Source of the DNA: an uncultured Bacteroidia bacterium
GTDB lineage: Bacteria; Bacteroidota; Bacteroidia; Bacteroidales; Prolixibacteraceae
NCBI GenBank assembly: GCA_903907075.1
Contig: CAIVMQ010000054.1
Location: 1-64,000 of the forward strand
Length of the DNA stretch: 64,000 bases
Direction of reading: 5' to 3'
The position numbers and the translations under genes are program-made. Of this stretch, positions 25,462-30,589 are shown one piece after another. Positions within the stretch are counted from its first letter, which is position 1. Every line of letters starts with the position of its first letter. The notes beneath the pieces were generated by a model, which saw only the letters and a program-made list of their open reading frames with translations, was not told the DNA's origin and searched no databases.

Positions 25462-25469
25462 TAAATTTG
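25462..25469 (+). promoter_or_regulatory. Putative -7 element TAAATTTG upstream of rdgB
   Basis: Exact TAnnTTTG, 21 nt before ATG. Confidence 0.5.
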
Positions 25470-25490
25470 CAACAAATCACCCTATACGTC

Positions 25491-26072
25491 ATGAGGAAAC
25501 TGGTATTTGCAACCAATAACGATCACAAGCTGAAAGAAATAACTCAGTTAATGCCAATGTATTTTGAACTTCTTAGCCTCAAAGATATCGGATGTTCCGA
25601 AGATATTCCCGAGACCGGTCCTACCTTGGAGGTTAATGCAGCTCAAAAATCATTTTACATCTGGGAGAAATACCGAATGAACTGCTTTGCTGATGATACC
25701 GGCCTTGAGATAGAGGCATTAGCTAATGAGCCTGGGGTTTATTCGGCACGCTATGCCGGAGAAGAGAAAAGTGCATCGGCAAACATGGATATGGTGCTCG
25801 AAAAAATGGCTGGAATAACTAATCGAAGAGCCCGTTTCAGATGTGTAATCTCCTTAATATTAGAGGGGATGGAGATTCAGTTCGAGGGAGTTGTTCTGGG
25901 TGAGATCCTTCCGCAAAGAGCAGGGGAAGCCGGATTTGGTTATGATCCAATTTTTAGACCTGAAGGATATTCAAAATCATTTGCTCAAATGTCTGAAATT
26001 GAAAAAAATAGCGTAAGTCATCGGGGACGGGCGGCAGAAAAGCTCATAGAATATCTGACAAAGCTGCACTAA
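25491..26072 (+). CDS. rdgB: RdgB/HAM1 family non-canonical purine NTP pyrophosphatase
   Basis: MRKLVFATNNDHKLKEI; CFADDTGLEIEAL; GFGYDPIFRPEG; SHRGRA. Confidence 0.92.
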   Translation: MRKLVFATNNDHKLKEITQLMPMYFELLSLKDIGCSEDIPETGPTLEVNAAQKSFYIWEKYRMNCFADDTGLEIEALANEPGVYSARYAGEEKSASANMDMVLEKMAGITNRRARFRCVISLILEGMEIQFEGVVLGEILPQRAGEAGFGYDPIFRPEGYSKSFAQMSEIEKNSVSHRGRAAEKLIEYLTKLH

Positions 26073-26119: not shown

Positions 26120-28432
26120 ATGATGCGTGTCAGATTACAACTTTGGTTATTCCTTATTACCGGCAATCTCCTTTCATTTCAGATGCAGGCAAACAACTGG
26201 CATTCATATTTGTCATATTACCAAACTTTTGCCATTGTTCAAGGAGACCAGCAGATTTTTGCCGCAAACCAATCGGGATTATTTGCCTATCATCTTACTG
26301 ATAAAAGTTTTACTACAGCCTCTACTGTCGAAGGGCTTTCCGATAGTGGGATATCTTCAATTTGTTACTCCTCTTCAATCAAAGGGGTGCTCATTGGTTA
26401 TGAAAATGGGAATCTTGACATCCTCTCTGGAAAGCGTGTTCGCAATCTGCCATACATTAAAATCAAAACTTCAATAGCGAAGAAATCAATTAATAATATC
26501 CTTAGTGACGGTGATTTTGCCTGGTTAAGTTGTGATTTCGGTATAGTCAAAATAAATCTCAGAAAATGGGAGGTCGCCGAGACATGGATAATCGGTGCGC
26601 AGGCAAGTACAATTGCAGTAAAAGATCTTACGGCTGATGATTCCTATTTCTGGGCTGCAACCGAGGTCGGATTATATAAAGCAGCAAAGAATAATCCCAA
26701 TCTTCAGGATTTTCAAAGCTGGGAACTCCAAGATGATCCGTTGCTTTTGAATAAATCATTCAGCTCAATTGCGGTATACCAGGGAAGAATATTTGTGACC
26801 GATAGTGATGGTCGTTGTTATTCCTATTTAGGGGGAGTTTGGAAGCAGGTCTATTCAGAGATTACAGGGATTCACAAAATAAAAGCATCAAGCTCTGGCG
26901 TGATGGTGATTAGTGATTCCCGTGTCGATGTGATTTCATTAAATAGTCAACGAACTATAACGAACTATGGAAATTTAACACCTCAAAACGTTAAGATATC
27001 GCCTCAGGATCTACTCATTGCAGATTCTGGAGAGCTTTGGATTGGAGATCATATCTTTGGATTAATCAATCAGACACAATCCGGCATGTTTAACTTAGTG
27101 GTCCCGGCAAGTCCGGCTGACAATAATGCTTCAAAATTAAGAATAACAGAAACAGGGCTCTATGTGGCAACGGCCTCAACTGATCCTGAGGTGGAGGATA
27201 TACCTGCGGCAATTCATCGCCTGCAACAACAGCAGTGGTTTTCGCTAAATGAATACACCCAGTCCAATTTGAGCGGGTTTAAAAATATCACGCAGGTGGT
27301 TCCCTCACCATCTAATGGCGAACATTTTTGGGCCTCAACACGAGGAGATGGGCTGCTTGAATTCGAGGGTCTTAAGATGGTTAAAAATTATAATTCAACA
27401 AATTCAACCCTTGCATCCTTTAATGGCAAGTGCCAAACCGGAGGGCTTGCAGTAGATAAAAGCGGCAACCTATGGGTTACAAACCCTTTTGTTCAAAATC
27501 AGTTACATCTTTTAAAACCGGATGGCACATTCAAATCGCTTCATTACCCTGGCATTGACAATCAATCTGAGGCTGCCGGAGAGCTAATTATTTCCCAAAA
27601 AGATACAAAATGGATTATTGTAAATAATTCAGATCTTTTTGCCCTGAAAACAGGTGCTACTCCCGATAATATGATGGATGATCAATATCGAAAAACAGCT
27701 GTAAGAAGTCGATTTTCGAATAGTGAAACAACCATTATTAAAGGGCACAACCAGCTTAATGCTTTGGTGGAGGATCACAATGGTTATTTATGGGCTGGGA
27801 CAGAAAATGGTGTCGTTCTCTATTCTGATCCGGAGTCGCTGTTTAAGGATACCGATTTTTATGGCATTCAACCCAGCGTAGATTTAGGAGATGACTTATT
27901 TCATCCTCTACTTGAAAATATGACTATTAATACTATAGCTATCGACGGAGGTAACCGAAAATGGTTTGGAACGACTAATTCAGGTGTTTACCTTTACTCC
28001 GAAGATGGATCAAGGATGTTAACCCATTTTGACACAGAAAATTCGCCACTATTTTCTAATCATATTAACAATATTGCGATTGACAACCGCACGGGGGAAG
28101 TATTTTTCGCCACCGATCAAGGGCTGTTATCGTACAATGGTGATGCTACCTTAGGGGAAAAAACGTTTAATCATCTTTATGTTTGGCCAAATCCTGTTAG
28201 GGAGACTTTTCATGGTGATATTACGATCGATGGTTTAACTGCCGAATCGGATATTAAAATTACAGATATCACCGGTAAGTTAATTTACAAGACCACTTCC
28301 AATGGAGGGCGAGCGACATGGAATGGGAGAGCTCGAAACGGAGACCGGGCAAATACCGGTGTTTACCTCATATTTTGCAGCAGTAGCGATGGAGCACAAT
28401 CGCGGGTAATCAAATTATTACTAATTCATTAA
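26120..28432 (+). CDS. porZ: PorZ-like two-beta-propeller T9SS protein with C-terminal sorting-like domain
   Basis: NNWHSYLSYYQTFAIVQGDQQIFAANQSGLFAYHLTDKSFTTASTVEGLSDSGIS; propeller repeats; LYVWPNPVRETFHGDITIDGL tail; upstream of recO. Confidence 0.82.
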   Translation: MMRVRLQLWLFLITGNLLSFQMQANNWHSYLSYYQTFAIVQGDQQIFAANQSGLFAYHLTDKSFTTASTVEGLSDSGISSICYSSSIKGVLIGYENGNLDILSGKRVRNLPYIKIKTSIAKKSINNILSDGDFAWLSCDFGIVKINLRKWEVAETWIIGAQASTIAVKDLTADDSYFWAATEVGLYKAAKNNPNLQDFQSWELQDDPLLLNKSFSSIAVYQGRIFVTDSDGRCYSYLGGVWKQVYSEITGIHKIKASSSGVMVISDSRVDVISLNSQRTITNYGNLTPQNVKISPQDLLIADSGELWIGDHIFGLINQTQSGMFNLVVPASPADNNASKLRITETGLYVATASTDPEVEDIPAAIHRLQQQQWFSLNEYTQSNLSGFKNITQVVPSPSNGEHFWASTRGDGLLEFEGLKMVKNYNSTNSTLASFNGKCQTGGLAVDKSGNLWVTNPFVQNQLHLLKPDGTFKSLHYPGIDNQSEAAGELIISQKDTKWIIVNNSDLFALKTGATPDNMMDDQYRKTAVRSRFSNSETTIIKGHNQLNALVEDHNGYLWAGTENGVVLYSDPESLFKDTDFYGIQPSVDLGDDLFHPLLENMTINTIAIDGGNRKWFGTTNSGVYLYSEDGSRMLTHFDTENSPLFSNHINNIAIDNRTGEVFFATDQGLLSYNGDATLGEKTFNHLYVWPNPVRETFHGDITIDGLTAESDIKITDITGKLIYKTTSNGGRATWNGRARNGDRANTGVYLIFCSSSDGAQSRVIKLLLIH

Positions 28433-28435
28433 CCA

Positions 28436-29161
28436 ATGCATCAAAAGACACGTGGAATAGTTTTACACAGCATAAAATATGGGGAGAGGGGGTTAATTAC
28501 GACCATCTACACCGAGTCATTTGGCAGAATGTCGTTTATTATGCAGGGCATTCACAGTAAAAAATCGGTTGTAAAAGCCAATCTTTTGAGGCAGCTATCT
28601 CTCTTGGAGATGGAGGTTGATTTTAGGCATGGGCACGAATTACAGCGCGTAAGAGAGATTAAAAATAGCTCTCCATTTAGCACAATACCTTATGAGATTA
28701 CAAAATCAACTCAAGCTCTTTTTCTCGCTGAGCTGTTATTTAAAGTCCTTCGCGAGGAAGAATCCCGACCTGAGTTATTCGCATTTCTATACGGATCGAT
28801 TCAGTTCCTTGACTTAATGGAGGAGGGAATTTCAAATTTTCACCTGCTATTTTTGATTCAGCTATCCCGATATTTGGGCTTTGCCCCGACAAACAACTAT
28901 TCGGCATCAGAGCCCTATTTTGATCTTATTGCCGGTAAATTTGCGATTAGCCCACCCGATCACCCATGGCATTTGAAGGAATCAGAAAGCGAAATCCTTT
29001 CTAAATTACTTGAAATGAACTACCAAGACGCTCTTTTTTTCAAACCGGATCAAGCAATTAGGCAAACTTTTATCTCTTTTATCCTTGAATATTATGGTCT
29101 TCACTTGGGGAATAAACTTCAGATAAAGTCACTCGATATACTCAAGCAACTTTTTCATTAA
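28436..29161 (+). CDS. recO: DNA repair protein RecO
   Basis: KTRGIVLHSIKYGERGLITTIYTESFGRMSFIMQG. Confidence 0.88.
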   Translation: MHQKTRGIVLHSIKYGERGLITTIYTESFGRMSFIMQGIHSKKSVVKANLLRQLSLLEMEVDFRHGHELQRVREIKNSSPFSTIPYEITKSTQALFLAELLFKVLREEESRPELFAFLYGSIQFLDLMEEGISNFHLLFLIQLSRYLGFAPTNNYSASEPYFDLIAGKFAISPPDHPWHLKESESEILSKLLEMNYQDALFFKPDQAIRQTFISFILEYYGLHLGNKLQIKSLDILKQLFH

Positions 29162-29248: not shown

Positions 29249-29256
29249 TATTTTTG
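29249..29256 (+). promoter_or_regulatory. Putative -7 element TATTTTTG upstream of 29280
   Basis: Exact TAnnTTTG, 23 nt before ATG. Confidence 0.45.
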
Positions 29257-29279: not shown

Positions 29280-30437
29280 ATGGGTTCATCAAAAATACCA
29301 ATGCCGAAGAAAAATTCCCTTACGACAATTCTTGAAGTTGCGGAAGGGAAGAACGCTATCGACCTGGCTGTACCGATGTCGAATTTGAATTGTCCGGATA
29401 AATTAATTGATCTGGTTAGTAAGAATATGAGATTAGGGAATAATGACTATTCGCCTGTGGAAGGGGTAGGTCTATTAAGGGAGCAAATCATTAGTCTGGT
29501 AAATGCACAGAATAACACATCCTTTAATCCAGATAAAGAGATAACCATAACGGCAGGTCCAGCGCAAGCTATGACCACTGCCATCAGCACCTTTATCAAG
29601 GAGGGTGATGAAGTAATTATTTTCGAACCTGTTCAGGAGTCCTACGCCCCTTTTATTGAATTAAATGGTGGAAGGCCGATTTTTGTAACCTTAAAACTTC
29701 CAGATTTCCGTATCGACTGGGAAGAGGTAAAAAAACTCGTCACCTCAAAGACTCGAATGATCATTATCAATAATCCGCAAAATCCAATTGGCAGAATTTT
29801 TAGTGAGGAAGATATTGACCAGCTCAAGCGGTTAACCAATGGAACACGGCTGGTTATTTTAAGCAATGAGGTATTTGACAATATCGTTTTTGACAACCTT
29901 AAATTTCGCAGCCTTGCTTCGGTGCCTGATTTAGCGGCTAAATCACTTATCGTATCAAGCTTTGGACCGGTATTCAATATTACAGGATGGGGCATTGGTT
30001 ATGTCTTTGGTCCAGAGAAGTTAATGAGTGAGTTTCGAAAGATTCAGCAATTCCAAGGGTTTAGCGTAAATACTCCCGCTCAATTTGCACTTGCTGAGTT
30101 TTTGCAGGATGAGCCTGATTTCGATGCAATATGTAAAAGCTATCATACCAAACGCGATTTGTTCATTTCGTTGTTAAAAGGATCTAAATTCGATCTTGTC
30201 CCTACCCAATCGACATTTTATCAGATTTTAGATTACAGCAAAATATCGGATGAGTCAGATGTTGACTTCGCCTTGCGCCTGATTACGGATTATGGTATTT
30301 CAACAGTGCCATTTTCTGCATTTCAGCATGAAAAGACTAAATATCAACTTATTCGAGTATGCTTTGCTAAACCCGATGAACTATTAGTGCAGGCTGCAAA
30401 GAAGCTAAAAGCCATTCCTTTAAAATCTCGTCATTAA
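29280..30437 (+). CDS. Aminotransferase class I/II fold protein lacking the PLP lysine (putative pseudoenzyme)
   Basis: ITAGPAQAMTTAI, NNPQNPIGRIF, LSNEVFDNIVFD, SSFGPVFNITGWGIGY, LIRVCFAKPDE align by eye to KAT/methionine aminotransferase-like proteins; SFGK is SFGP. Confidence 0.85.
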   Translation: MGSSKIPMPKKNSLTTILEVAEGKNAIDLAVPMSNLNCPDKLIDLVSKNMRLGNNDYSPVEGVGLLREQIISLVNAQNNTSFNPDKEITITAGPAQAMTTAISTFIKEGDEVIIFEPVQESYAPFIELNGGRPIFVTLKLPDFRIDWEEVKKLVTSKTRMIIINNPQNPIGRIFSEEDIDQLKRLTNGTRLVILSNEVFDNIVFDNLKFRSLASVPDLAAKSLIVSSFGPVFNITGWGIGYVFGPEKLMSEFRKIQQFQGFSVNTPAQFALAEFLQDEPDFDAICKSYHTKRDLFISLLKGSKFDLVPTQSTFYQILDYSKISDESDVDFALRLITDYGISTVPFSAFQHEKTKYQLIRVCFAKPDELLVQAAKKLKAIPLKSRH

Positions 30438-30511
30438 TAGCTCACTTGCCTGAAGAAATTTGCTGTGCACCCATTCGGGAAAAAGTAATCTGGCATAGCT
30501 AAAAATATCTG

Positions 30512-30582
30512 GCCTCATAGTTCAAGGGATAGAATAGAAGTTTCCTAAACTTTAGATTCGCGTTCGAGTCGCGGTGAGGCTA
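30512..30582 (+). tRNA. tRNA-Arg (anticodon CCT)
   Basis: Cloverleaf by eye: acceptor ggcctca/tgaggct, D-stem gttc/gaat, anticodon stem gaagt/acttt with loop ttCCTaa, T-arm tcgcg ttcgagt cgcgg; CCA not encoded. Confidence 0.85.
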
Positions 30583-30589
30583 CACAGAG

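Follow-up and report, generated by a model that had tools for sequence, protein, structure and literature searches.

The window analysed here, a 64,000-nucleotide stretch of DNA from a Prolixibacteraceae bacterium, encodes a 385-residue protein with homology to methionine aminotransferases that lacks the PLP Schiff-base lysine. We are highly confident that this protein is a pseudoenzyme and not a transaminase: its catalytic residues have been lost while purifying selection persists, the combination by which a pseudoenzyme is recognized. PLP-dependent transamination is very unlikely, because no internal aldimine would be able to form and the phosphate contacts are lost. On balance, we favour a role as a PLP-independent regulator or adaptor that would act by protein contact and might be gated by a carboxylate. 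The preliminary description of this DNA had proposed a pseudoenzyme, and the lack of any orthologue with the catalytic lysine, the joint loss of PLP contacts and the strong purifying selection bear this out. Its list of possible functions (ligand binding, regulation, scaffolding or a different chemistry) holds as far as a non-transaminase role is concerned and can be narrowed to a PLP-independent adaptor or sensor.

Loss of PLP contacts in an aminotransferase fold

The gene starts with ATG and has no internal stop codon, as first described, and the landmark motifs NNPQNPIG and IRVCFAK are both present as read then (Table 1). The protein aligns over its full length with the E. coli methionine aminotransferase YbdL (1u08; 374 residues, E 1.9e-78). 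In the segment SSFGPVFNITGWGIGY, residue 230 is encoded by CCG, and the alignment places P230 on the K of the SSFGK motif, that is, on the Schiff-base lysine, which agrees with the initial reading of this codon. Only aminotransferase families were matched in Pfam, with PF00155 scoring 159.5 bits (domain at residues 51-375). The NCBIfam model NF006569 ('methionine aminotransferase'), matched by all 13 members of set A1 (best E 6.3e-142), gave 403 bits for the window protein, below its curated cut-off of 420. An AlphaFold2 model computed with the family alignment (pLDDT 84, pTM 0.84) predicts an intact aminotransferase fold, with YbdL as the nearest solved structure (TM 0.92-0.94).

Table 1. Features of the window referred to in the text. 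The names of the three genes upstream of the pseudoenzyme gene are presumptive.
Feature	Position	Strand	Remark
rdgB-like (dITP/XTP pyrophosphatase)	25467..26072	+	upstream block member
porZ-like T9SS component	26120..28432	+	upstream in most family members
recO	28436..29161	+	constant upstream neighbour; profile built from these loci
TATTTTTG	29249..29256	+	Bacteroidota-type -7 box (TAnnTTTG), 31 bases before start codon
Lys-less methionine-aminotransferase-like pseudoenzyme	29280..30437	+	385 aa
Asn168 codon	29781..29783	+	retained ligand-carboxylate Asn (human KAT-I Asn185; PMC4926479)
Asn196 codon	29865..29867	+	SDEVY Asp, pyridine N1 contact
Phe199 codon	29874..29876	+	SDEVY Tyr, O3' contact
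Pro230 codon, CCG	29967..29969	+	PLP Schiff-base lysine position
Gly238 codon	29991..29993	+	phosphate-contact Lys/Arg position (TGWK)
Glu-Lys of HEK motif	30330-30335		residues 351-352
Arg359 codon	30354..30356	+	retained ligand-carboxylate Arg (human KAT-I Arg398; PMC4926479)
tRNA-Arg (CCT)	30511-30583		directly downstream of pseudoenzyme gene

Other cofactor contacts differ as well. In the same alignment, G238 stands for the second lysine (that of TGWK), N196 and F199 for the Asp and Tyr of SDEVY, A95 for the phosphate Thr of AGAT and Q119 for the stacking Tyr/Phe. The preliminary description had counted three PLP-contact changes, among them SNEVF in place of SDEVY; all three are real, and the count was too low, since G238, A95 and Q119 are changed too. 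The contact roles given to the aligned positions are those general to the KAT/AAT family. For five residues of human KAT-I (Lys247, Asn185, Arg398, Tyr63 and Phe125), they are described in PMC4926479.

A homologue search at E <= 1e-60 gave a match in 81 of 140 genomes of the Prolixibacteraceae (a GTDB-type family), the gene being absent from several genera. Residue counts refer to the 68 distinct Prolixibacteraceae sequences that were read, which do not cover all 81 matches. Neither lysine (the equivalents of KAT-I Lys247 and Lys255) occurs in any of these 68. Position 230 is P in 57 sequences, A in 5, S in 2, T in 2, H in 1 and D in 1, and S226, G229, G236 and W237 are invariant around it. 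The O3' Tyr (KAT-I Tyr216) is lost in 66 sequences and kept in 2, and the phosphate Thr is lost in 64 and kept in 4. Position 196 (KAT-I Asp213) is still D in 35/68; the Asp-to-Asn change seen at the outset is thus present in the window protein without being family-wide, and it carries less weight than the changes at the two lysines and at the Tyr. Retention of this Asp in half of the family might weakly allow for some residual cofactor binding. A divergent additional member (L172), not beside recO, has Arg at the lysine position. The PLP lysine was present in every clearly canonical relative seen. Loss affected 4 of 7 cofactor contacts vs 13 of 66 other sites that are invariant in canonical enzymes, a marginal difference (Fisher p = 0.047).

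Sixteen other genomes of the same genus, each separately assembled (G001-G016), carry an orthologue that is 81-87% identical and has P, S or H at position 230; in a further genome of the genus (G017, 78% complete), neither the gene nor recO was detected. Because these orthologues likewise lack the lysine, a base-call error at codon 230 is excluded, and so is a pseudogene, given a dN/dS of ~0.03. The original argument against sequencing noise is thereby extended to these 16 genomes and to all 68 distinct sequences.

Part of the ligand site has been kept: Asn164 is present in 68/68 sequences, and Asn168 and Arg359 in 67/68 each. In human KAT-I, the residues equivalent to the latter two (Asn185 and Arg398) hold the carboxylates of ligands (PMC4926479), and the conservation of Asn168 and Arg359 may also have structural reasons. 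The ancestral substrate loop SQGFPDF has been rewritten (Q31, F33 and P34 each in 0/68), which indicates that the pocket has been reshaped beyond the loss of its lysine, and any retained ligand therefore need not be an amino acid. Clade-specific constraint was found at K157, Q181, N187, G188, E351 and K352. The Glu-Lys of the HEK motif is conserved at 87-97% in the family vs 13-26% in canonical relatives, Lys352 accounting for the upper values (97% vs 26%). Judging by how the strands are ordered in the fold, we infer that residues 157, 181, 187 and 188 cluster at the edge of the sheet, remote from the active site, where they would form a possible contact surface.

Selection, gene neighbourhood and alternative readings

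In unsaturated same-genus pairs, dN/dS was ~0.032 vs 0.086 for recO, and the median dN was 0.44 times that of recO; a second genus gave a dN/dS of 0.057 vs 0.082 for recO. The dN comparison is the firmer one, because most pairs have reached saturation at synonymous sites. Such strong purifying selection means that the gene is not decaying, and since position 230 varies freely under this constraint, the function under selection makes no use of it. The loss of catalytic residues and the gene's absence from several genera are what an inert relic, a dying aminotransferase gene, would leave behind. This reading is hardly credible and is refuted by the codon-level constraint: the protein evolves more slowly than recO, the frame is open in all relatives examined and the gene has its own conserved promoter-like box.

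Almost every family locus that has sufficient flanking sequence shows the order rdgB-porZ-recO-gene, with 65-219 bases between recO and the gene (311 in L193). The motif TAnnTTTG, which we take to be the Bacteroidota promoter consensus, occurs in 68 of 77 distinct recO-gene gaps, mostly 26-34 bases ahead of the start codon, vs 5.8 expected from composition-only shuffles of what are related sequences. In most family members, porZ is the second gene upstream, and this block could link the gene product, as a component, to type IX secretion (PorZ). However, porZ was undetected genome-wide in G004, G006, G016 and G035, all of which keep the gene, and in eight family genomes with porZ-recO, the 1.5 kb downstream contain nothing that resembles the gene. 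The porZ-less genomes largely refute such a partnership, which we rate as highly improbable, and together the two sets indicate that the gene probably forms an independent unit. In L036/L183 and L037, from the same genus and with genomes of 2.8-2.9 Mb, rdgB and recO no longer have porZ between them and no porZ was found in the rest of the genome, while the pseudoenzyme gene remains. A strong porZ-like ORF was also seen ~3.6 kb from a canonical aminotransferase on a Flavobacteriales contig (L080:1921-4381), with no recO detected nearby.

The main rival to a regulator or adaptor is a heterodimer in which the Lys-less chain would serve as pseudo-subunit of an active aminotransferase, in a composite active site or for regulation. 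The precedent is serine palmitoyltransferase, whose LCB1 is a Lys-less fold-type-I subunit paired with LCB2 (PMC3794620). Tyr57, the equivalent of the KAT-I Tyr63 that comes from the other subunit, is consistent with this, being Y in 47 and F in 15 of the 68 sequences. However, the next homologue in the bacterium's own genome is only 26% identical, leaving it without a close active paralogue, and among the family genomes searched, a canonical YbdL-type copy was found only in G012. We consider a heterodimer unlikely. A somewhat smaller likelihood attaches to an enzyme whose remodelled pocket performs a new chemistry, either independent of PLP or using PLP/PMP non-covalently. The well-predicted fold, the strong constraint and the retention of Asn164, Asn168, Arg359 and often Asp196 would suit such an enzyme, but the general base Lys has been replaced by the chemically unrelated P/A/S/T/H/D, so that no single new catalytic residue is found at 230. 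In addition, with neither the Lys nor the Thr left to contact the phosphate, PMP would be expected to bind poorly.

It is very improbable that the protein is still a PLP enzyme through a lysine located elsewhere. Lys352 of the clade-specific HEK motif and Lys157 are the lysine positions near fixation in the clade, and no new clade-wide lysine is known to lie in the PLP pocket; judged from the sequences, Lys352 would be the only real candidate. Yet Lys352 is in the loop before the Arg359 strand, Lys157 is placed by the fold topology before a strand away from the pocket, and the other PLP contacts have been lost as well.

Lysine losses in the wider Bacteroidales lineage

When canonical relatives were included in the trees, the Prolixibacteraceae sequences fell into a single clade (SH-aLRT 99), which adjoins other fast-evolving, often recO-adjacent Bacteroidales homologues; the branching order among these neighbouring lineages is weakly supported. 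Across this wider lineage, the lysine is kept in L193, L210, L221, L223, L224, L249 and L250. It is replaced by Glu in L053 (Marinilabiliaceae), in L214, L215 and L216 (family f30) and in L229, by Arg in L219 and L222, and by Ile in L258 and L035; L035, L258, L219, L222 and L229 are single-genome cases, among which assembly errors are possible. The Glu type of Marinilabiliaceae and related families is distinct from the Pro/Ala type of Prolixibacteraceae. Parsimony requires at least six changes at the lysine. A single Lys-less clade was rejected on a quick tree with the lysine columns left out (p-AU 7.7e-7), which rules out one ancestral loss for all Lys-less members.

No Lys-bearing copy lay beside recO among the ~70 canonical-type loci checked first; Lys-bearing, recO-adjacent copies are present in families f87, f93, f81 and f111. 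For recO adjacency and lysine loss, we claim co-occurrence only, because independent pairs are too few for contrasts. In the recO-adjacent homologues of f93 (L249, L250 and L258), the carboxylate Arg is changed to Gly, with the lysine kept in two and Ile in L258; their sequences suggest that here the pocket is decaying from its opposite side. Two genomes hold a canonical Lys-bearing and a Lys-less copy together (G012, with L170 and L022, and G226, with L230 and L229).

We see an even chance that these homologues make up an undescribed recO-linked Bacteroidales family in which a non-catalytic role arose first, catalysis then became dispensable and at least six lineages lost the lysine independently of one another. 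The closely related Lys-keeping versions in neighbouring families offer a graded series for studying the switch from enzyme to non-enzyme. If the role did precede the loss of the lysine, Lys-keeping and Lys-less orthologues would form a natural series showing an enzyme becoming a regulator.

Proposed mode of action and known systems

We propose that the protein is a fold-type-I pseudoenzyme derived from a methionine/glutamine-type aminotransferase. Any binding of PLP is improbable, since the family as a whole no longer has the Schiff-base Lys, the Lys and Thr that contact the phosphate, or the O3' Tyr. The fold, a likely dimeric state and the Asn168/Arg359 carboxylate clamp have been kept under strong purifying selection. 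The protein may act as a soluble regulator or adaptor that contacts other proteins, and the carboxylate of a small amino or keto acid in the former active-site pocket might gate it. Its mode would resemble that of MalY on MalT, independent of any enzyme activity of its own; MalY is meant as a model for the mechanism and not for membership.

Annotation models point this Lys-less family to 'methionine aminotransferase', which masks its likely non-enzymatic role, and metabolic models of Prolixibacteraceae should not count the protein as a transaminase. To our knowledge, stand-alone, family-wide fold-type I PLP pseudoenzymes are rarely documented in bacteria. Lys-less fold-type-I chains are already known; what appears new is a stand-alone bacterial family with repeated lysine loss, no Lys-less aminotransferase family of this kind having been found in the literature searched.

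With YbdL and NF006569, the protein shares full-length homology, the fold, the NNPxNPxG turn and the carboxylate Asn and Arg. Unlike them, it has no Schiff-base Lys, phosphate Lys/Thr or O3' Tyr, its substrate loop is replaced and its score falls below the model's cut-off. Human kynurenine aminotransferase I (glutamine transaminase K) likewise shares the fold (TM ~0.9) and the Asn185 and Arg398 equivalents, but is PLP-dependent and has Lys247 (PMC4926479). LCB1/SPTLC1 is also a Lys-less fold-type-I chain (PMC3794620), yet it is the obligate partner of an active paralogue, whereas the genome of the window protein has no near paralogue. E. coli MalY has the aminotransferase fold and needs no enzyme activity for the regulation (repression) of MalT (PMC11203769), but keeps PLP and C-S lyase activity. 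MocR/GabR regulators use an aminotransferase-like domain as a sensor (PMC5320631, PMC6917764); they combine it with a winged-helix DNA-binding domain and PLP binding, whereas the window protein consists of the aminotransferase domain only.
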